From Sinomonas sp. ASV322 (lineage in GTDB: Bacteria; Actinomycetota; Actinomycetes; Actinomycetales; Micrococcaceae), in NCBI RefSeq assembly GCF_030908245.1, contig NZ_JAVFJJ010000009.1, positions 62,001-126,000 on the forward strand: a DNA stretch of 64,000 bases, given 5' to 3'. Positions within the stretch are counted from its first letter, which is position 1. Each line of letters begins with the position of its first letter. A program made the translations under genes and the position numbers. The notes under the pieces were generated by a model, which was not told the DNA's origin, searched no databases, and was given only the letters and a program-made list of their open reading frames with translations. Positions 51,101 to 60,727 of the stretch are shown here, in pieces.

Positions 51101-51601
51101 CTGTGCCGCGCCGAGCAGCACGGCGTCTCGCTCGATGCCGATCCTCAGACCGTGATCCTGGACCACCGTATTCGCGAACGAATGGTAGGTCGAAACGCTC
51201 GGATCCAGCGCCTCGGGGTCGATCGCCTCGGGGGCCACGTCGATGCCGCGTTTCCTTGCCGCGCGGGCGAGTTTGGCGAGCTGCGAGCGGATGCGGGCCG
51301 AGAGCTCCCCCGCGGCCTTGCGGGTAAACGTCACGCCGAGGATCTCGTCGGGGCGAACCCATCCGTTGGCCACGAGCCACACGACCCGATCGGCCATGGT
51401 GGCCGTCTTCCCGGACCCCGCGCCCGCCACCACGAGCCTCGGCGCGAGCGGGGAGGAGATGATCTCCGATTGCTGGGCCGTTGGCTGATGCTGCCCGAGG
51501 AGCTCCGCGAGTTCTTCGGGGGTGAATCTCGGTTCAGGTAACTCGGCCTGGACTGACGGGTCCTTGCCGCGCTGCTCTCGGGACTCACCAGCCGAGGTCA
51601 T
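48158..51601 (-). CDS. adnB: AdnB-type helicase-nuclease subunit
   Basis: A 1147-residue SF1A helicase with C-terminal nuclease. Motor: Walker A VVAGAGSGKTATMADR, VTFTRKAAGELSARI, motif II VLLDEFQDTSFAQ, GDPNQSIYGFRGA, LLTVHASKGLEWDAVVVAG and LAYVAFTRAK. The PD-(D/E)xK domain (about 990-1110) has GRIDAVFRDADGTWDLVDWKTGRAP, preceded by GTAFHAWVEEYF. It matches the lead motor/nuclease of the AdnAB end-resecting machine for double-strand breaks. ATG 51601 overlaps the adnA stop by 4 nt. Confidence 0.92.
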   Translation of the reverse strand: MTSAGESREQRGKDPSVQAELPEPRFTPEELAELLGQHQPTAQQSEIISSPLAPRLVVAGAGSGKTATMADRVVWLVANGWVRPDEILGVTFTRKAAGELSARIRSQLAKLARAARKRGIDVAPEAIDPEALDPSVSTYHSFANTVVQDHGLRIGIERDAVLLGAAQSWQLAATVVEAYDGDIWEGFPAKSTLVGAVMTLAAECTEHLQDPGNVEEWLLGEFGRFTELPLVAERGRGPSAAAAKLSATLRSRAAVAGLVARFAEAKARRGALDYGDLVALAARIARDVPEAGQLVRSQYRTVLLDEFQDTSFAQTVLFSKLFGDGHPVMAVGDPNQSIYGFRGASAGQLSTFPETFPEIRSDGTRSRAAVSHLTTAWRNSVTVLATANTVSHPLGRPASYARDSRTVEVRTLEASPFATDGRVLVGRFADESREAAAVAIELEAFVRDRRPGLPTLAVLCRKRAQFEPIRREFERRAIPYEVVGLGGLLDTPEIIDVVSTLRVIADPGRSDALMRLMAGARWRIGPADLMALADWSRHLAARRAQAARPAEQDLDAPGAADETLVEGDLADVASLVEAIDRLPRPGWVSGAGRTVSDGASARLVRLRDELRTLRTLSSDDLGTLIAHVERSLLLDIELAARPGASVHHARRNLDAFQEAAASFLAQSTSSELLAFLSWLDAAAEEESGLDIAPHEPTPGAVQLLTVHASKGLEWDAVVVAGLNLGAFPSGGNDRWTSGPAALPWPLRGDVRELPEWDTEQPDQKGWVDAEKAFAEDATEHAEREERRLAYVAFTRAKDLLLATCSAWSATRAKPMQPSPFLVELRDAAAERGFTVIEWVDDAELPEDNPLHAEPDSAAWPYDPLEGPLDAASGHRLSLAPGRRAPLEHAAGAVRAQLSEPGTSDLPEGVGVPGAAGLRATARHSPRALGWVREAELLLTEHGRADDGMGVRLPEHISASAVVALGQDAQAVVRQLRRPVPRRPGMSARRGTAFHAWVEEYFAQSAMLDLEGLDHADDFVDEAYDLQSFVDVFKSSEWAHRSPAFVEVPIETRVGPVVVRGRIDAVFRDADGTWDLVDWKTGRAPSGRDAEARAVQLAVYRLAWSRLHDVPLDRVTAAFFYLADGRIVRPDRLAGEAELEELIASVLG

Positions 51602-54600
51602 TCGGTCACCTGCCGACCCCGCGCGCACAGCGGGCAGATGTCTGGAAGCCGACATCCGCCCGCAAAGCCGGAGCCCGGCTCATGCCTGGCGACGAACTCT
51701 GAACCCGCCATGGTCTCGGCCGCCTGTTCCACCAGCTCAACCGCCCAGCCTGACGCGTCGAGTGGCGGCTGCTGTTGGATCGCCACCGATTTCGCCGTGT
51801 CGCCGAGCTGCACAAGCTCGGCACCGCCCGGGCGGGCCTGTCCCGTGGGCCGCTCGCCGCCGTCGTCCTCGAACGCACCCGCGGTGACTGCCACCTGGTA
51901 CGCGGCAAGCTGGGCGTGCCGCGGAACGTCCGCGGCCCGAGGCTTGCTCTTGCCGGTCTTGAGGTCGACGACGACGAGGCGCCCCTCGTCGTCCCGCTCG
52001 AGCCGGTCGACCTGACCGCGGATCACGGTCCGCTTGGAGATCTCGGCTGCGCCCACCCCATCGAGCGCGGCCTCGAAATTCAGCTCGACGCCGACGAGTT
52101 CCCGTTCCGAACCCCGCACGTACTCGGCAAGTTTGAGCAGCATCGCGCCGGCACGCTCGTACTCGCGCCGCCCCTCCCACGAATCCGGGTGCCCCAGGCT
52201 TGGCCATCTGCGCTTGAGTTCGGCGTGGAACTCCACGGCCGTTCCGCGCGGCAGGTCCTGGGCGATCGCGTGCACAAGGGTTCCGAGGCTGCGCGCGAAG
52301 TCGGTCGCAGCCTCGCCCCCCGCCGCCGAGACGAACCAGTCGAGAGGGTTCCTCGCGGCGGTCTCGACCTTCGAAGGCGAGACGAACACCGTCTGGCCCT
52401 CGGGAACGACGGGCCCTGTGCTCGACAGGGGCGCAAGCCCGTACCAGTCGTCGGGGTGCGACCCAGGTGCTCCGGCGCGCGCGAGCCGCGCGAGCAGGGC
52501 GACAGCGTCGGCCGCATCTCGGCCGCCTTCCTCGGCCGATTGCCGCAGCTCGCCGACGAGGGACCGCAGCCCGAGCATGCGTGGGACATCGGTGTACGGG
52601 CGAACGGCTCTTCCGTCGGGCAAGGGGTCGATGAGGTCGAGGAACGACGAGGGAACCTCGTCCTCCGAGCGCACGCCCGTGCAGACCAGGCGTTCCGTGG
52701 CCCGGGACACGACCGCCGAAAACATGCGCAATTCGTCGTACCGGATGTCGCGAAGGCGCGAGCGTGAGGTCACCAGCATCGCCTCGACAGGACCGAGTTC
52801 GAGGCAGTCCGTGAACATCGTGCTGCCCAAGAGCTCCCCTCGAAGGCGATTGTTGGGCCACACCCCGTCTTGGAGTCCGATGACGAACACAAGGCGCCAC
52901 TCGCGTCCCACCGCGCTCGCCGGGGTGAGGAGTTCGACGGCGTCGTCGGCCTGGGCGCGCGGCGCGAGGGTGTCCATGGGGATCTCCTGGTCGAGGAGAT
53001 AGTCGAGGAACTGCCCGGGCGAGGCCCCCGGGAGGCGGTCCACATAGCGCTCGGCCGTGTGGAAGAGGGCCATGAGGGCGTCGAGATCGCGGTCGGCTCG
53101 CAGGCCGACGGGCCCGCCGCCGATGGCGAGCGAATACCATCGCCGCCAGAGGGCCGCCGCGTCCCAGAGGCCCCACAGAACGGTCTCGGCCGTCGCCCCT
53201 GGCTCTGCTGCGGCCGCTCTCCCCCGCTCGAGCATCCGCGCGACCCTCCGCGCGGCCTGGCCCTCGACGCCGAGCTCGTCCAGCACACCGGGAGCCTCGA
53301 CCGCTTCGATGAGGAGGGCATCGCTCGCCCGCCCGCCGCCCGAAGAGAGTTCGAGCTGGCGCAGGGATTGGCGCAGGCGCCGGAGCTCGAGCGCGGAGGC
53401 CCCGCCGATCCGCGACATCAGGAGCTCAACGACCGTCTCGGCGGTCAGCGAGCTCGGATCGACGACGGCGCGATAGGCCGAGAGAAGCGGCCGCACCGCA
53501 GCTTCGTCGCGAACGGCCGTCTCCGCTACCGGGACCTTGACGGGGATGCCCTGCGAGGCGAGGAAGCGCTGCGCCTGCGCGAGCTTGACCCCCGAGCGCA
53601 CCATGATGGCGATCTCGCCGTAGCCGAGCCCGCCGAGCAGGTGGGCATCCTGAATCCGATGGGCGACGTATCGCAGCTCGTGCATGGGCGAATGCAGGAC
53701 ATGCGCTTCGACTTCGCTGAGCGGATCGACGAGTTCGGCGTGCTCGAGCTGCCGCGCCTTCTGGCCCCCGGGCACGGCCGAGATGCGCGACGCAACGGCC
53801 TGCCATGCGACCGACACTGCAGGAGGCATTCGGTGCGACGTCGCCAAGGCCACCTCGGTCAGCCCGCCGAGCAGTTCGCCGAGCCGCGATACGAGCTCCG
53901 GGCGCGCGCCTCGAAAACCCTGGACGACGACGTCGGGGGCCGCCGACACGATGACGTCCCGCCCTTCGCCGAGCACAGACACGAGTTCGAGCACGGCCGG
54001 GTTGGCCTCCTGGATGTCGTCGACGACCAAGAGCGCGAGCCTGCGTCGCTCCGCCGCAAGGAGTTCGGCGTCGTCGAGCAGGATCTGGCGGGCGGCTGTG
54101 ATGATGCCTGCGGGATCGAATGCCTCAGGCATGCGGAGTTCGAGGACGTCGCGGTACTCGCGGAAGAGCTCCGCCGCGGCCTCCCACTCGGGTCTCTGGG
54201 TGCGACGCCCGAGCTCGGCGAGCTCATGCGCCGTCGTGCCGTATTCCGTGACGCGGTCGACGAGCTCGCGCACCTCGTGCCGGAATCCGCGGGTTCCGAG
54301 GGCCGATTCGAGGCCCCGGGGCCACGCGGGCCCCCGGCCCGTCTTGGCGTGCCCTTCGAGCAGCTCCCTGATGATGAGGTCCTGCTCGGCGCCGGACAGG
54401 AGGCGCGGCGCGCGCGGAAGCCACTCGATCCGTCCCTCCGAGCGGGCGCGCCGGATGAGGTCGAAGGCATACGACTGCCACGTGCGCGCAGGCGGCGAGC
54501 TGAGGCTGCGATCAAGCCGCGCGGTGAAGCCGTCGCGCAGGCGCGCCGATGCGGCCCTCGACGGCGCCACGAGCAGCACCTGCGAGGGATCGACGCCGTC

Positions 54601-54873
54601 CCGCTCGACCCGCACGGCGGCTGCCTCAACCAGCACGCTGCTCTTGCCCGTTCCCGGAGCGCCCCACACGAGCACGGGACCCACTCCTTGGCGCAGCTCG
54701 ATGACGGCTCGCTGGTCGGGCGAGGGGTCGAGGCCTGAGCGCGAGGCCCGCGGCAACGGCGGCAGGAGGGTCAGGCCCGCGTCGCGGGACGGCGCTTCGA
54801 CGCGCGGAGCCTCTGGCCCGAGCTGGGTGTGGCTGGTCTCGTGATGGCGGATGGTCGGCGCGAAAACCGTCAT
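51598..54873 (-). CDS. adnA: AdnA-type helicase-nuclease subunit
   Basis: A 1091-residue partner of AdnB. The N-terminal UvrD-like motor has Walker A VWGAPGTGKSSVLVEA, but motif II reads LLVVDDIQEANPAV, away from DExQ, as in AdnA, whose motor is secondary. The C-terminal RecB-like nuclease has VIRGQVDRLERDDEGRLVVVDLKTGKSKP (D and DLK). A terminal Cys cluster (GCRLPDICPLC) resembles the iron-sulfur staple of AddB/AdnA nucleases. ATG 54873 overlaps the upstream alkyltransferase-like gene's stop (ATGA). Confidence 0.9.
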   Translation of the reverse strand: MTVFAPTIRHHETSHTQLGPEAPRVEAPSRDAGLTLLPPLPRASRSGLDPSPDQRAVIELRQGVGPVLVWGAPGTGKSSVLVEAAAVRVERDGVDPSQVLLVAPSRAASARLRDGFTARLDRSLSSPPARTWQSYAFDLIRRARSEGRIEWLPRAPRLLSGAEQDLIIRELLEGHAKTGRGPAWPRGLESALGTRGFRHEVRELVDRVTEYGTTAHELAELGRRTQRPEWEAAAELFREYRDVLELRMPEAFDPAGIITAARQILLDDAELLAAERRRLALLVVDDIQEANPAVLELVSVLGEGRDVIVSAAPDVVVQGFRGARPELVSRLGELLGGLTEVALATSHRMPPAVSVAWQAVASRISAVPGGQKARQLEHAELVDPLSEVEAHVLHSPMHELRYVAHRIQDAHLLGGLGYGEIAIMVRSGVKLAQAQRFLASQGIPVKVPVAETAVRDEAAVRPLLSAYRAVVDPSSLTAETVVELLMSRIGGASALELRRLRQSLRQLELSSGGGRASDALLIEAVEAPGVLDELGVEGQAARRVARMLERGRAAAAEPGATAETVLWGLWDAAALWRRWYSLAIGGGPVGLRADRDLDALMALFHTAERYVDRLPGASPGQFLDYLLDQEIPMDTLAPRAQADDAVELLTPASAVGREWRLVFVIGLQDGVWPNNRLRGELLGSTMFTDCLELGPVEAMLVTSRSRLRDIRYDELRMFSAVVSRATERLVCTGVRSEDEVPSSFLDLIDPLPDGRAVRPYTDVPRMLGLRSLVGELRQSAEEGGRDAADAVALLARLARAGAPGSHPDDWYGLAPLSSTGPVVPEGQTVFVSPSKVETAARNPLDWFVSAAGGEAATDFARSLGTLVHAIAQDLPRGTAVEFHAELKRRWPSLGHPDSWEGRREYERAGAMLLKLAEYVRGSERELVGVELNFEAALDGVGAAEISKRTVIRGQVDRLERDDEGRLVVVDLKTGKSKPRAADVPRHAQLAAYQVAVTAGAFEDDGGERPTGQARPGGAELVQLGDTAKSVAIQQQPPLDASGWAVELVEQAAETMAGSEFVARHEPGSGFAGGCRLPDICPLCARGRQVTE

Positions 54874-55280
54874 GGCTCGATCCCACCATCGGGGTCCGAC
54901 ATTTTCCGGTGCCGGCCGTGAGTCCGGTCCCAGAGCGCTTCGGCGACCGCGTCGACAGCGTCGAGTTCGCCGTCGTCGGGCGCCCAGCGGGCCCGGCCCA
55001 TATCGACGCGCCACGAGCCGACGCCGGGCGTTCCGCGGAGCGGCGTTCCCTCGTCGATGTAGCGGGCGAGCGCCTCGCGCTCGTGCCCCTCGGGGGCGCC
55101 CCCGTTCGCCTTGATGACGCGCCACCAGGCGGCCTGTCCCCCGTAGTGGGACATGACCGAGCCGACTTGGCGGGGTCCGCCCGCCCCAAGCAGCTCGGCG
55201 ACGTCGCCGTAGGCGAGGACTGTTCCGGATGGGACAAGGTCGACGACGGCCAACACCGCCTCAACGTACTCGTCCCGCAT
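54870..55280 (-). CDS. Alkyltransferase-like (MGMT/Ogt-fold) protein
   Basis: A 136-residue protein with the DNA-binding domain of O6-alkylguanine transferases. It reads VEAVLAVVDLVPSGTVLAYGDVAELLGAGGPRQVGSVMSHYGGQAAWWRVIKANGGAP. In repair enzymes the active site is PCHRV; here WWRVI occupies the place, so no acceptor Cys is present. That is typical of ATL proteins that flag alkylated bases for nucleotide excision. A C-terminal extension of about 45 residues contains GVGSWRVDMGRARWAP. ATG 55280 fits a TAGGCT -10 at 7 nt. It heads the ATL-adnA-adnB operon. Confidence 0.87.
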   Translation of the reverse strand: MRDEYVEAVLAVVDLVPSGTVLAYGDVAELLGAGGPRQVGSVMSHYGGQAAWWRVIKANGGAPEGHEREALARYIDEGTPLRGTPGVGSWRVDMGRARWAPDDGELDAVDAVAEALWDRTHGRHRKMSDPDGGIEP

Positions 55281-55287
55281 GCCCACC

Positions 55288-55404: not shown

Positions 55405-55488
55405 AGGGACCCGATGATCGCTGAACGCCGGATTGCCGGCAAAGGAAAACGTGCTGCCGCCTGCCTGTTCCCGTGGGCTCCCGGGGTC

Positions 55489-55494
55489 TACTGT
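55489..55494 (+). promoter_or_regulatory. -10 hexamer TACTGT for leaderless Lgt-like/radical SAM operon
   Basis: TACTGT is followed by 6 nt and the ATG at 55501. No strong -35 is seen at the expected distance, which suits a regulated promoter. Confidence 0.55.
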
Positions 55495-55500
55495 GTTCGA

Positions 55501-56256
55501 ATGATCGGGCTGCCGTTCGCCGGGAACGGACTGGTGCATGGCATCTTCATGGGCGTGGGCATCGCGGCCGCCCTCATCTTCTACGCCTTCGAGACGCGGC
55601 GCCGCGGCCTCACCGACGCCCGGCTGTGGACCCTCGCCGGTTTCGCCCTCGCGTTCGGCGCCGTCGGCTCTCGGTTCACGTGGGATTTCACCCGGCAGGC
55701 GTCCCCGGCCCAGTGGTGGTTCGACGGCGACCGCAGCATCCTCGCGGGTCTCGTCGGCGCATGGATCGGCGTCCATCTGGGAAAGCGTCTCATCGGCTAC
55801 AGGGAATCCACAGGAGATCTCTTCGCGCCCGCGATCGCGCTGGCGATGAGCCTCGGGCGGATCGGCTGCCTCCTCACCGAACTGCCCGGCACCCCGACCG
55901 GAGGCAGCTGGGGGATGGTCCTGACACCGGCCCAGGCCGCGCTGCTCGGCGGCCCGGCCGCGATCGGGCTCCACCCCTCGTTCGCGTACGAGATCGTCTT
56001 CCACGCCACCGCGTTCGCGCTCATGGTGCGCTACCGCGACCGCGTGAGGCGCACAGGGGACCTGTTCATCTGCTACGTCGCCGCCTACGCGCTCTTCCGC
56101 TTCGGCGTCGAATTCGTGCGCGGCAATGAAGAGCTGTGGCTGGGGATGAGCCGACCGCAGTGGTTCCTTCTGGCCGTGCTGCCCCTGCTGGCCTGGCGGG
56201 TGTGGCGGGTGTTCGCCAGACCCGTTGCCGCGAAATTGGAGGGAAGGGCGGTATGA
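55501..56256 (+). CDS. Lgt-like (prolipoprotein diacylglyceryl transferase family) membrane protein
   Basis: A 251-residue polytopic protein of the Lgt superfamily. Helices include GIFMGVGIAAALIFYAFETRR and LWTLAGFALAFGAVGSRFTW. The Lgt-type motif LAMSLGRIGCLLTELPGTPTGGSWG keeps the conserved Arg of GRxGC/N. HPSFAYEIVFH stands for the HPTQLYE box. The canonical His-Gly-Gly segment (SFHGG in true Lgt) is replaced by SILAGLVGAWIGV, so ordinary prolipoprotein modification is doubtful. It is first of a four-gene operon with a radical SAM enzyme. ATG 55501 fits the leaderless -10; the upstream in-frame extension is rejected. Confidence 0.75.
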   Translation: MIGLPFAGNGLVHGIFMGVGIAAALIFYAFETRRRGLTDARLWTLAGFALAFGAVGSRFTWDFTRQASPAQWWFDGDRSILAGLVGAWIGVHLGKRLIGYRESTGDLFAPAIALAMSLGRIGCLLTELPGTPTGGSWGMVLTPAQAALLGGPAAIGLHPSFAYEIVFHATAFALMVRYRDRVRRTGDLFICYVAAYALFRFGVEFVRGNEELWLGMSRPQWFLLAVLPLLAWRVWRVFARPVAAKLEGRAV

Positions 56257-56603
56257 GCGAGGAACCCCCAGACAGCCCCCAGCCCCCGCGGGCGCCCGAG
56301 CCGCGCCGGCCATCATGGCCGCGCCGGCTACTGCGGCGCCCGGGCGTCTCCCTGCTGCTCGGGATTGGGGCCGGGGTCGTGGCGCTCTTCCTGCTGGGCC
56401 TGCTGGCCACGGGGATCTCCGCCGCCTCAGGCGCCTGGTCGTTGCTGCCGTTTGCCGTGTATCTGGTCGGGGCAATCGTGCTCGCGGTGAGGCCTGTGAC
56501 ATCTCGCTTCGGCGCGGGATTGCTGCTCGCGATCGGGGTCTGGGTGCTCATCGGCGCCGGTGTCTGCGTCGCGCTATTGAACAACCCGAGAGGATTCGTG
56601 TGA
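56253..56603 (+). CDS. Small membrane protein of the Lgt-like/radical SAM operon
   Basis: A 116-residue protein. A Pro/Arg-rich N-terminus of 30 residues precedes three hydrophobic helices: GVSLLLGIGAGVVALFLLGLLATGI, AWSLLPFAVYLVGAIVLAV and FGAGLLLAIGVWVLIGAGVCVALL. No known motif. GGAGGGAAGG precedes its ATG, which overlaps the Lgt-like stop by 4 nt; its own stop overlaps the radical SAM GTG by 3 nt. It is probably a membrane partner of the operon's enzymes. Confidence 0.8.
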   Translation: MSEEPPDSPQPPRAPEPRRPSWPRRLLRRPGVSLLLGIGAGVVALFLLGLLATGISAASGAWSLLPFAVYLVGAIVLAVRPVTSRFGAGLLLAIGVWVLIGAGVCVALLNNPRGFV

Positions 56604-58234
56604 GCCCTTCGAACGCGGTCTCGCGCCGCGCGCCGCTCGGCCCGGGCCAGCCCCTGCGCGGGGACCGGATCCACCGGTACGTCACGGCGTTCTGCCCGCG
56701 CTGCCACGAGACGAACCCGCCGCTGGCACAGGTGCGGCGCCTCTCCGGGGCCCTCCTCGTGCGGGACGGGCGGGTCTGGCTGGAACGCGGCTGTCCCGAC
56801 CACGGTCTCGTGCGCACCCTGTACGACGAGTCGCCCGAGATCCTGCGCTATCTGGAGAAGTGGCAGGCGCCGACGAAGGCGCACGTCCCAGACGAGGCAG
56901 AGAACTACCGCCCGGTCCCGGAGGCGTATGCCTACGGGCTTCCCGCGATGCAGACCCAGCACACGTGCATCCTCCTCGAAGATGTGATCGAGCACTGCAA
57001 TCTGCGCTGCCCGACGTGCTTCACGGCGTCCGGCCCGCAGCTGCAGGGCGTGGCCCCGCTCGCCGAGGTCCTCGCGAACGTCGATGCCCGGCTGGCCCGC
57101 GAGAACGGGCGCCTCGACGTGCTCATGCTCTCCGGCGGCGAGCCGACGCTCTATCCTCATCTCGCCGAACTCCTCGACGAGCTGGTCGCCCGGCCGATCG
57201 TGCGGATCATGGTGAACAGCAATGGGATGCTCATCGCGACCGACGACGAGCTGCTGGCCCTGCTGGAGAGGCATCGTGAACGGGTCGAGGTCTACCTCCA
57301 GTACGACGGCCCGTCCAAGGAGACCTCCATCCACCATCGCGGGGGCGACCTGACGCGATTCAAGGACGCCGCGATCTCGCGCCTGTCCGAGGCGGGGGTC
57401 TTCACGACCCTGACGATGACGGCGGCCCTGGGCGTGAACGACGGCGAGATCGGCGCCGTCGTCCTGCGCGCCTTGGAGACCCCGTTCATAGGCGGGGTCG
57501 CGCTGCAGCCGGTGTTCGGCTCGGGGCGGGGACACGGCATCGATCCCGGGGACCGGCTAACCCACACCGGGGTACTGGCGCGCCTGGAGGAGCAGACCGG
57601 CGGGGTGGTGGCGTGGCACGACCTCACGGCGCTGCCCTGCTCGCACCCGCACTGCGCCTCCGTGGGCTACATGCTCAAGGACGACTCGGGCGTCTGGCGG
57701 TCCCTGACCGCCCTGATCGGGCACGACCAGTTGCTCGCCTGGCTCGAGATCGACCCCGACAGCATCGCCAACCGGATCGCCGACAGCGCCATCCCGCTCA
57801 GCCTGCGCTCGCTCATGAAATCGTCGCTTCTCGACCTGCTGAGCGAGCAGTCCTCGCTCTCGCATCCGAGCACGGCGGACCTCTGGAAGAACATCTGCAC
57901 CCAGTGCGACCTCGGCATCGGCACGCTGGCCACCCTCGCGGCCGGCTGGCTCCCCGGCCAGCAGCAGCGCCTCCGCAGGCTCCTGGCCGAGCGCGTCACC
58001 CGCATCACCGTCAAGCCGTTCATGGACATCTCGACCATGATCGAGGAGCGCCTGCGCCAATGCTGCGTCCACGTAGGCACCAAGAGCGACGCCGGCAAGC
58101 ACCAGTGCGCCCCCTTCTGCGCCGTCCAGGCCTGGCCCGCACTCGCCAGACAGCGGATCAGCACCGCGACCGGCCTGCCCCTGCCCACCCTGCGTCTTAT
58201 CCAAGCACCGAGCAGCGCCCGAGAAGCCTCATGA
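56600..58234 (+). CDS. Radical SAM enzyme of the MJ0619/tetraether-synthase (Tes)-like group
   Basis: A 544-residue enzyme. The radical SAM cluster is CNLRCPTC (C133, C137, C140), followed by MLSGGEPTLYPHLAELLDEL (GGEP). Before it lies a rubredoxin-like Cys set: C32-x2-C35 (FCPRCHE) and GCPDHG (C65). After the barrel are more Cys pairs: LPCSHPHCASVGYM, ICTQCDLGIG and a terminal RQCCVHVG...HQCAPFCAVQAW. By memory this layout is that of MJ0619-type methylases and archaeal Tes, which join lipid chains and carry several auxiliary iron centres. GTG 56600 overlaps the previous stop (GTGA), with AGAGGA upstream. Substrate unknown; lipid is inferred from the Lgt-like neighbour. Confidence 0.85.
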   Translation: MSPSNAVSRRAPLGPGQPLRGDRIHRYVTAFCPRCHETNPPLAQVRRLSGALLVRDGRVWLERGCPDHGLVRTLYDESPEILRYLEKWQAPTKAHVPDEAENYRPVPEAYAYGLPAMQTQHTCILLEDVIEHCNLRCPTCFTASGPQLQGVAPLAEVLANVDARLARENGRLDVLMLSGGEPTLYPHLAELLDELVARPIVRIMVNSNGMLIATDDELLALLERHRERVEVYLQYDGPSKETSIHHRGGDLTRFKDAAISRLSEAGVFTTLTMTAALGVNDGEIGAVVLRALETPFIGGVALQPVFGSGRGHGIDPGDRLTHTGVLARLEEQTGGVVAWHDLTALPCSHPHCASVGYMLKDDSGVWRSLTALIGHDQLLAWLEIDPDSIANRIADSAIPLSLRSLMKSSLLDLLSEQSSLSHPSTADLWKNICTQCDLGIGTLATLAAGWLPGQQQRLRRLLAERVTRITVKPFMDISTMIEERLRQCCVHVGTKSDAGKHQCAPFCAVQAWPALARQRISTATGLPLPTLRLIQAPSSAREAS

Positions 58235-58593
58235 GCGCCGATTCTGACGCACGGCGCATCGCCGAGGGCCCGTCGCCGTCGCACCTTGTCGGTCCGCGGA
58301 ACGGCACCCAGCCCGAGCCCGCGCCGCCGCCGCAGGACTCGCCGCCCTTCGATCCGCTGCGACTGTGCATCTTCGCCACCATCGCCCTCCTGGGATGGCT
58401 GGCAGGCCCGCCCGCGCTCGTGGTGTTCTCTGCCATCGGGTTCGTCGGCTACGCGAAGGCCCGGCGCGCAGGCCTGACCACCTCGAAGTGCTTCCTCCGC
58501 GACACGAGGCTCGTGCTCCTCTACCTCGGCATCCTCACGGCCGCGGGGCTCTGGGGGACTTACGCGCTCGCGGCTCGCCTCCTCGGCTTCTGA
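58231..58593 (+). CDS. Small two-helix membrane protein, last gene of the radical SAM operon
   Basis: A 120-residue protein: a Pro/Ser-rich cytoplasmic N-terminus of about 45 residues, then helices LCIFATIALLGWLAGPPALVVFSAIGFVGY and LVLLYLGILTAAGLWGTYALAARLLGF joined by a basic loop (KARRAGLTTSKCFLRDTR). No known motif. The ATG overlaps the radical SAM stop by 4 nt, so it belongs to the same operon. A role in anchoring or delivering substrate to the radical SAM enzyme is a guess. Confidence 0.8.
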   Translation: MSADSDARRIAEGPSPSHLVGPRNGTQPEPAPPPQDSPPFDPLRLCIFATIALLGWLAGPPALVVFSAIGFVGYAKARRAGLTTSKCFLRDTRLVLLYLGILTAAGLWGTYALAARLLGF

Positions 58594-58753: not shown

Positions 58754-59461
58754 ATGACGTGGAGCAGCAGTGCAAGGGCAGCGTTCGACCTCGAGACGAC
58801 CGGCCGTAACTCGCGCGCAGCCCGCATCGTGACTGCGAGCATCGTCGTGCTCGCCGCGGATGGGTCGGTCGAATCCGAGTACGAGTGGCTCGCGGATCCA
58901 GGAGTCGAAATCCCCACTGAGGCCGCAGAGGTCCACGGCATCACGACCGAGAAGGCGCGCGCCGAGGGACAGCCCGCGGCCGACGTCGTCGCGGAGGTCG
59001 CGGCAACGCTCCAGAAGCTGTTCGACGAGGGCATCCCGGTCGTCGCCTTCAACGCTGCCTACGACTTCACCGTGATGGCGGCGGAGTGTGCGCGCCATGG
59101 CCTGCCCCAGCTCACACGATTCCCCGTGCTGGACCCGTATGTCATCAACAAGCAGGTCGAGCGCTTCCGCAAGGGGAAGCGGACATTGGGCGCACTGTGC
59201 GAGCAATATGGCGTCGTACTCCGCGACGCTCACACGTCGGCGGCAGACGCGCTCGCGGCGGCCCAGCTGCTCGACGCGATGGCGAGCCGCTTCCCGGAGC
59301 TCAACAAGCCCGCCCCCGCCCTGCACCGAAGCCAAGTCGACTGGTCCCTCGAGCAGGCCGCTGACTTCCAGTCCTATCTGCGGCGCACGAAGCCCGCCGC
59401 AGTGGTGGAGGGCGATTGGCCTGTGCTCACCCCCGCCGACGCGAGCCGCGGCGGATTTTAG
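58754..59461 (+). CDS. DEDDh 3'-5' exonuclease (DNA polymerase III epsilon-like)
   Basis: A 235-residue DnaQ-like exonuclease. ExoI FDLETTG (D and E), ExoII FNAAYDFTVMAAEC (D) and ExoIII DAHTSAADALAAAQLL (H and D) form an intact DEDDh site. EVHGITTEKA is the usual linker. The C-terminal 60 residues (SQVDWSLEQAADFQSYLRR) lack polymerase-subunit motifs. It is a stand-alone nuclease for repair or RNA/DNA trimming; the exact substrate is unknown. Monocistronic. ATG 58754 is supported by the -10 position. Confidence 0.9.
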   Translation: MTWSSSARAAFDLETTGRNSRAARIVTASIVVLAADGSVESEYEWLADPGVEIPTEAAEVHGITTEKARAEGQPAADVVAEVAATLQKLFDEGIPVVAFNAAYDFTVMAAECARHGLPQLTRFPVLDPYVINKQVERFRKGKRTLGALCEQYGVVLRDAHTSAADALAAAQLLDAMASRFPELNKPAPALHRSQVDWSLEQAADFQSYLRRTKPAAVVEGDWPVLTPADASRGGF

Positions 59462-59767: not shown

Positions 59768-60727
59768 ATGAAGCTCAAGGCACCCAAGTGGCTCGCGGCC
59801 GCCCCCGTCGCAGCTGTCCTCGCGCTCACGCTCGCCGCGTGCGGCGGCGCGTCCACCGGCACCCCCTCGGGAACCCCGACCGACGCGCTCAAGGGCTCGG
59901 ACAAGCAGTCCACCGACAAGTACACGACGGCTTCGGTGACCCCGCTGGACAAGATCGACACGTCGAAGCTCGGCCTCATCACGCCCGGCACGATCAAGGT
60001 CGGAACGCTCTCTGACGCGCCGCCGAACATCTTCATCGACAAGAACACGGGCGAGTTCACCGGCTACGACAACGAGCTGCTCAAGGCCATGGCCGCGAAG
60101 CTCGGGCTCAAGGTCGAGTTCGTCTCGACGAAGTTCCAGAGCCTCCTCGCCCAGGTCAAGACGAAGCAGTTCGACATGGGCTCGTCCTCGATCTCGACGA
60201 CGGACGCCCGCCGCGAGACCGTCGCGTTCACGAACGGCTACGACTACGGCTACATGGCGATCGTGACCAAGGACGGCGCGAAGGTGAAGACTTTCGACGA
60301 CCTCAAGCAGGGCGTGCGCATCGGCGTCGTGCAGGGCACGGTCCAGGACGACTTCGTGACCAACACGCTCAAGCTCGACCCGGTCCGCTTCCCGGACTAC
60401 AACACGGTCTACGCGAACGTGAAGAGCGGCCAGGTCGACGCGTGGGTTGCCCCGTCGCAGCAGGCCGAGGGTCAGGTCAAGCAGGGCGACGGCACTGTCA
60501 TCGCCCAGAAGAAGGTCAACACCCAGAACTTCACGGCCTACGCCGTCGCGAAGGACAACCCCGCACTCCTCGAGGCCCTCAACTCGGCCCTCGACGCCGT
60601 GATCGCCGACGGCACGTGGTCCAAGCTCTCCGCTCAGTGGTACCAGGACCGTCCCACGCTCAAGGAGCAGACCCCCGAAGGCTGGAAGCCGGGCAGCAAG
60701 GCCGTCCAGGTCACTGCGGCCAAGTAA
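59768..60727 (+). CDS. Polar amino-acid ABC transporter binding lipoprotein
   Basis: A 319-residue family-3 solute-binding protein. The signal peptide ends in lipobox LAAC with Cys at residue 25, then a Ser/Thr/Gly linker. Mature motifs: GTIKVGTLSDAPPNIFIDKNTGEFTGYDNELLKAMAAKLGLKVEFV, RRETVAFTNGYDYGYMAIVTK, GVRIGVVQGTVQDDFV and LNSALDAVIADGTWSKLSAQWY. It binds an amino acid (family includes Gln, Glu, Arg, Cys binders) outside the membrane. First gene of a three-gene operon. Confidence 0.92.
   Translation: MKLKAPKWLAAAPVAAVLALTLAACGGASTGTPSGTPTDALKGSDKQSTDKYTTASVTPLDKIDTSKLGLITPGTIKVGTLSDAPPNIFIDKNTGEFTGYDNELLKAMAAKLGLKVEFVSTKFQSLLAQVKTKQFDMGSSSISTTDARRETVAFTNGYDYGYMAIVTKDGAKVKTFDDLKQGVRIGVVQGTVQDDFVTNTLKLDPVRFPDYNTVYANVKSGQVDAWVAPSQQAEGQVKQGDGTVIAQKKVNTQNFTAYAVAKDNPALLEALNSALDAVIADGTWSKLSAQWYQDRPTLKEQTPEGWKPGSKAVQVTAAK

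Follow-up and report, generated by a model that had tools for sequence, protein, structure and literature searches.

What would an actinobacterium gain by encoding, in a single operon, a radical S-adenosylmethionine (SAM) enzyme and a relative of the lipoprotein diacylglyceryl transferase Lgt? The question is raised by four genes at positions 55501-58593 of a 64,000-nucleotide stretch of Sinomonas sp. ASV322 (contig NZ_JAVFJJ010000009.1; the whole stretch is hereafter the window). They encode an Lgt-like protein, a small membrane protein (MEM1), a radical SAM protein, and a second small membrane protein (MEM2). An earlier reading of the window (hereafter the original prediction) had joined them into one operon by start/stop overlaps, and all three junctions are indeed overlaps of 4 nucleotides (ATGA, GTGA, and ATGA). 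It had also proposed that the operon modifies or cross-links lipid chains, an interpretation that our comparisons appear to support in part. We hold it an evenly balanced proposition that the unit serves Actinomycetota as a dedicated membrane-lipid-modification module working on phosphatidylglycerol-type lipids, which is favored because of the ancestry of the radical SAM protein in tetraether synthase (Tes), a retained phosphatidylglycerol pocket in the Lgt-like protein, membrane partners, and strict co-inheritance. Cross-linking of lipid chains would be a possibility and not the default.

The unit is more than a chance arrangement because its residues, linkage, and co-occurrence are kept across many genera, including Arthrobacter, Nocardioides, and Microbacterium, which are readily cultured. 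Relatives of the radical SAM protein number 514 in a scan of 84,980 species genomes, and the loci of the best 80 of the 514 were studied. An Lgt-like gene lies beside the radical SAM gene at 79 of these 80 loci; at the sole locus lacking it (L064), 290 bases of contig precede the radical SAM gene. At 59 loci, the Lgt-like gene is upstream, and at 20, it is downstream; the link has therefore outlived rearrangement. Among 396 Actinomycetota genomes, 17 have a match to the radical SAM protein at an E value of 1e-40, ten of them to members of an Lgt-linked clade (55-100% identity) and seven only at 32-39% identity. A profile of the Lgt-like protein scores the same ten genomes at 297-377 bits and the first of 19 others at only 142 bits. 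The survey of co-occurrence that had been suggested with the original prediction thus comes out in its favor, and we reject a chance neighborhood on the linkage at 79 loci and the presence in the same ten genomes. Distances among the radical SAM proteins and among the Lgt-like proteins correlate at 0.93 across 75 sequences (the Sinomonas protein and those of 74 loci), a value that also reflects shared ancestry, versus a maximum of 0.10 in 500 permutations. The radical SAM gene and the Lgt paralogue are co-inherited as a unit, together with MEM2 except in three mycobacteria-like genomes. Leaving aside the unit itself and overlapping frames on either strand, no family of at least 80 amino acids occurs at more than 10 of the 80 loci, whose flanks are short at contig ends, and a larger operon is rejected on this basis.

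Searches of solved structures show that nearly the whole of the radical SAM protein is homologous to Tes. As a single sequence, it matches 7tol (Tes, or GDGT-MAS) with an E value of 1.8e-31, and the homology covers residues 26-529 of 544; a profile of 56 relatives matches the same chain in two stretches at 3.2e-88. It is the sole near-full-length match among solved structures, and the next-best chain in the profile search, SkfB (E value of 3.1e-13), aligns to the core only. The same holds for solved peptide maturases, and a peptide maturase is rejected as an identity for this protein; the matches are thus not limited to unrelated radical SAM families, the outcome that had been named as counting against the original prediction. 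MJ0619, which had been taken for a separate family of methylases, is the Tes/GDGT-MAS enzyme itself according to PMC9433317. Pfam matches include Radical_SAM and Zn_ribbon_HMPTM, and the SPASM family is absent among them at E values up to 1. By curated models, the protein is neither Tes nor TrsS, because both scores are far under the cut-offs: 141.9 bits versus 450 for Tes (NCBIfam NF045702) and 180.1 bits versus 490 for TrsS (NF045646), the best curated model. Weak matches to these two models mean little because, at a loose threshold, each matches 14 of 14 control genomes (over the cut-off in three for Tes and in none for TrsS).

At the level of residues, the resemblance to Tes is extensive and incomplete. 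The predicted layout of cysteine motifs is present (CPRC with CPDHG, CNLRCPTC, PCSHPHC, and CAPFC), and there is a further CxxC (C433/C436) and a CC pair (C488/C489). A rubredoxin-type site (C32/C35/C65/H68, corresponding to C9/C12/C33/H36 in Tes) and the CX3CX2C motif of the SAM cluster (C133/C137/C140) are shared with Tes and invariant in an alignment of 56 rows. Three of the four SAM contacts of Tes are kept (F106, R210, and Q268), the exception being Ser271. The C-terminal cysteines are C347, C352, C433, C436, C488, C489, C503, and C507; of the candidate ligands of the C-terminal auxiliary cluster in Tes, Cys 338, 455, 456, and 470 are kept and Cys 438 is replaced by Val, and C347, C433, C436, and C503 are extra relative to Tes. 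Unlike Tes, the protein lacks the ligands of the N-terminal Fe4S4 cluster (C73/C77/C80), where it reads VPEAYAYGLP, as it does in two other Lgt-linked rows. Likewise, Met439 and Tyr459 of Tes are replaced by Lys472 and Val492. These two residues are conserved in 1,000 archaeal Tes, and variants at both stay active as described in PMC9433317, so the change does not show that the reaction is lost. The Tes resemblance that had been predicted therefore holds for near-full-length homology and fails at the curated cut-offs, the N-terminal ligands, and Met439/Tyr459.

In a FastTree phylogeny rooted on 7tol, the only Tes included, 47 Lgt-linked proteins (the Sinomonas protein, those of 39 of the 80 loci, and seven from other genomes) group with a support of 0.88 on a stem of 2.0 substitutions per site and thus form a clade of their own by this analysis. 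Nine paralogues that we call TrsS-like, on the basis of their best score only (the eight that were scored are under both curated cut-offs), group together with a support of 0.63. All three of the TrsS-like rows inspected retain an N-terminal CxxxCxxC, unlike the Lgt-linked clade, and its loss is therefore probably derived in that clade.

The Lgt-like protein is an Lgt-family paralogue with an altered signature. It is a member of the Pfam LGT family (PF01790; 80.3 bits versus a cut-off of 24.9) and falls below both lgt equivalogs (47.7 versus 118.9 bits for TIGR00544 and 63.6 versus 334 bits for NF000778). A single-sequence search of solved structures returned no match at E values up to 1; a profile alignment reaches Escherichia coli Lgt (5azb) at 3.4e-11 over chain residues 85-271. 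Equivalents of seven pocket residues of E. coli Lgt (R143, E151, E202, Y235, R239, E243, and R246) are kept, each in 80 of 80 rows. In the E. coli enzyme, the pocket residues are reported as buried and most intolerant of change, with E202 variants fully or partly active (PMC4728403). The signature GRxGN...E..G begins with GRIGC here: Asn146 is Cys (C123) in all 80 rows, and the E and G are kept. The resemblance claimed in the original prediction thus stands for family membership and not for the signature Asn. Two other differences from E. coli Lgt are a Leu in place of H103 and the loss of Y26, the latter judged by eye against the genome's two other Lgt copies because it lies outside the 5azb alignment. 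Those two copies look canonical, and both, by eye, have a Trp at the position of the essential His103 of E. coli Lgt. Absence of H103 hence does not set the operon paralogue apart, whereas the change of Asn146 to Cys does separate it from both. On the lost signature Asn and the two other copies, we reject that this is the ordinary Lgt of lipoprotein synthesis. We infer that the paralogue may have kept the donor lipid and changed the acceptor.

The two small membrane proteins differ in how tightly they follow the unit. MEM2, for which no Pfam or NCBIfam family matched, is present at 75 of 80 loci, and its C46 and C87 are invariant in 76 of 76 rows. It occurs in seven of the 396 Actinomycetota genomes, all of which carry the operon; G094, G378, and G414, the three carriers that lack MEM2, belong to one mycobacteria-like genus, and their loci resemble a mycobacterial plasmid locus described below. 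In MEM1, a Pro-rich N-terminus is followed by roughly three hydrophobic segments, the last of which has a conserved Cys (C105) close to its end. The Cys is found in 92 of 101 aligned rows and in 40 of 40 rows of a stricter alignment. MEM1-like matches occur at 67 of the 80 loci, at times in tandem and with at least one doubtful (L123, on the other strand), and a simple BLAST finds MEM1 at 30 of them. In the genome survey, it gives five strong matches in carriers (5 of 10) and two marginal ones elsewhere, and by these matches, it is a looser family than MEM2. Hydropathy and positive charges predict that the MEM1 Cys is outside and that the MEM2 cysteines are cytosolic.

These properties can be arranged into a working model, in which the substrate is presumably a lipid. 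Tes binds phospholipids and archaeal phosphatidylglycerol-type lipids in hydrophobic pockets; its substrates are saturated isoprenoid chains, which it couples by means of its C-terminal cluster, as reported in PMC9433317. In the model, the radical SAM enzyme would act on the inner side of the membrane, where it would be docked by MEM2, the two invariant cysteines of which are predicted to be cytosolic. Its 5'-deoxyadenosyl radical and C-terminal Fe-S cluster or clusters would functionalize an unactivated lipid-chain carbon. The simplest target would be an acyl chain in a phospholipid of the phosphatidylglycerol type. The Lgt-like protein would bind phosphatidylglycerol at the outer face and pass the diacylglyceryl moiety on to an acceptor that is not a lipoprotein signal peptide, and one candidate acceptor is the conserved Cys of MEM1, probably at the outer face. 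Together, the two enzymes would yield a diacylglyceryl lipid modified in head and tail, or else a proteolipid. Tail-to-tail coupling of lipid chains is possible, if somewhat improbable.

Several observations weigh against a lipid-modification module. The radical SAM protein is distant from curated Tes and scores higher for TrsS, and the lost N-terminal ligands, Met439, Tyr459, and Ser271, together with the long stem of the clade, suggest a possibly different reaction. With Lgt active at the outer face and Tes presumably at the inner one, a meeting of the two activities on one lipid is hard to place. The sampled genomes are related, and counts are not independent. At 10 of 80 loci, the unit lies between cdsA, for CDP-diacylglycerol synthesis, and a gene that we take to be rlmN by its position (Pfam says radical SAM); such an arrangement is simply the usual housekeeping one in a single group of loci and hence weak evidence. 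Lastly, hydropathy identifies four strong segments in the Lgt-like protein versus seven helices described for E. coli Lgt (PMC4728403).

The boldest special case of a membrane-lipid module is the synthesis of membrane-spanning lipids. The radical SAM enzyme would join two acyl-chain ends, yielding diabolic-acid-like or branched tetraester or tetraether lipids in aerobic Actinobacteria, and the Lgt-like protein would edit the head group. Homology to Tes and the four kept C-terminal cysteines common to Tes are consistent with this, and the losses of Met439 and Tyr459 are not decisive given the active Tes variants (PMC9433317). Bacteria from which biphytanyl chains are not known also encode Tes homologues (PMC9433317; PMC8941075); 456 bacterial homologues have been reported, with a proposed role in branched tetraethers (PMC8941075). 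For bacterial membrane-spanning lipids, coupling is proposed to occur with the phosphatidylglycerol head in place, and the bacterial synthase Mss is reported to have a Tes-like catalytic architecture and to act on lipids proposed to have phosphatidylglycerol heads (PMC13274423). Homologues of Mss are recorded in 17 of 146 metagenome-assembled genomes of Actinobacteriota, in a 2025 article that calls the tetraether role of bacterial Tes homologues unconfirmed (PMC11868695). That status, a score far under the Tes cut-off, and the lost ligands of the N-terminal cluster all speak against such a synthase. Among the open-licence papers listed, titles and abstract openings disclosed no such lipid from these genera. 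In addition, mycobacteria carry the unit and are not known for iso-branched chains. Altogether, we consider this special case unlikely. Titles and abstract openings of the open-licence papers listed contain no description of an Lgt/radical SAM pairing.

A more specific proposal combines both enzymes in aerobic, mesophilic Actinobacteria: the Tes-related enzyme would join or functionalize acyl-chain ends, and the Lgt-derived enzyme would move the diacylglyceryl group of phosphatidylglycerol to a new acceptor, possibly the MEM1 Cys, to give a covalently coupled lipid or proteolipid. We regard this proposal as a long shot. Were it true, a single module would alter a phospholipid at head and tail alike, by an as yet undescribed route.

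Alternatively, MEM1, MEM2, or both may be substrates in the maturation of small proteins, with the Lgt-like protein lipidating the MEM1 Cys and the radical SAM enzyme modifying a residue or the attached lipid. Both small proteins have conserved cysteines, MEM2 is exclusive to carriers, and Lgt normally alkylates a Cys at the outer face, the predicted place of MEM1 C105. However, that Cys is in the last hydrophobic segment and not in an N-terminal lipobox, and neither protein is universal, as MEM1-like matches are missing at 13 of 80 loci and MEM2 at 5 of 80. The absence of a SPASM family among the Pfam matches and the core-only matches of solved maturases argue further against maturation, which we find distinctly improbable.

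The radical SAM protein might instead catalyze an unrelated reaction, for example of the TrsS kind, with the Lgt-like protein as a mere membrane anchor. The model of TrsS, a radical SAM (seleno)protein, is the best of the curated ones, by 180.1 bits to 141.9 for Tes. Against such a reaction, the TrsS score is far below its cut-off, and an anchor would have no need of the catalytic pocket that is conserved in the Lgt-like protein. A methyltransferase gene, found beside two TrsS-like paralogues, is not conserved at the unit. There is only a slight chance that this account is correct. The nine TrsS-like paralogues share the cysteines C347/C352, C433/C436, and C488/C489 with the Sinomonas protein and have a different genomic setting: an Lgt-like gene is nearby at none of the nine loci, two of which have a distant canonical-type Lgt several kilobases away. 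Eight TrsS-like segments score 303-355 bits for TrsS and 279-332 bits for Tes, having been trimmed, which lowers scores. Their neighbors vary (methyltransferase, thioredoxin, Crp-type regulator, MauE, and CDP-alcohol phosphatidyltransferase) and pointed to no substrate.

Within the genus, seven of 14 other genomes carry the operon, three have only TrsS-like paralogues, and four have neither. The three (G001, G006, and G009, with loci L012-L016, L049, L050, and L053) have one or two paralogues at 33-34% identity instead of the operon, and two of these adjoin a gene for a Crp-type regulator. In an actinomycete genome (L051) and on a haloarchaeal plasmid (L175), the TrsS-like gene directly adjoins a gene for a SAM-dependent methyltransferase.

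An isoprenoid substrate in place of a glycerophospholipid, such as a menaquinone tail, polyprenyl phosphate, or carotenoid, is very improbable. In its favor, Tes itself acts on saturated isoprenoid chains (PMC9433317). Modified menaquinones and C50 carotenoids also abound in Actinobacteria. Against it, the near-constant Lgt-family partner with its phosphatidylglycerol pocket points to glycerolipids, and genes of isoprenoid metabolism, like all other further genes, are conserved at no more than 10 of 80 loci.

The unit provides a large bacterial branch of the Tes/TrsS superfamily with a fixed set of partners, one of them an Lgt paralogue for which a donor lipid is likely. Should the product prove to be a membrane-spanning lipid or proteolipid, the finding bears on which bacteria make the branched tetraethers of soil, and Lgt would have been re-used outside lipoprotein synthesis.

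Two Mycobacterium plasmids also carry the pair of Lgt-like and radical SAM genes, as does an 11.85-Mb Nonomuraea record labeled as a plasmid, which suggests that the pair can move. On the Mycobacterium avium plasmid pS2b (5225-8545), two MEM1-like proteins are encoded between the pair, an IS110 transposase gene is nearby, and the MEM2 motif was not found at the locus.

Table 1. Features of the four-gene unit, in coordinates of the window.
Feature	Position	Strand	Basis
-10-like hexamer TACTGT	55489-55494	+	6 nucleotides before first start codon
Lgt-like gene (Lgt-family paralogue, 251 amino acids)	55501-56256	+	Pfam LGT match
MEM1 (small membrane protein, 116 amino acids)	56253-56603	+	Hydropathy; MEM1-like matches at relatives
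Radical SAM gene (GTG start, 544 amino acids)	56600-58234	+	7tol, Pfam, NCBIfam, and residue map
MEM2 (small membrane protein, 120 amino acids)	58231-58593	+	Conserved Cys; co-occurrence

An in-frame ATG at 55414 is an alternative start for the Lgt-like gene that would add 29 residues. The start in table 1 is favored because orthologues open with the same M[IV]GLP. The loci of 34 relatives were scanned for the hexamer, 18 of which matched the Lgt-like start pattern. By eye, a TAnnnT hexamer precedes the start codon by 6 nucleotides in 17 of the 18 and by 7 nucleotides in one, and its position is kept although the DNA upstream of it differs widely. A generic sigma-70 promoter scan found no promoter at the unit. 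The conserved hexamer fits leaderless transcription, as the original prediction had it.

The genes flanking the unit in the window are of other kinds. Upstream, on the - strand, are a UvrD-type helicase fused to a PD-(D/E)XK nuclease domain (51598-55125) and a short DNA-binding protein like 6-O-methylguanine-DNA methyltransferase (54870-55286). Downstream, on the + strand, are a protein with an RNase T/DnaQ-type exonuclease domain (58754-59461) and a family 3 solute-binding protein of an amino-acid-type transporter (59768-60727).

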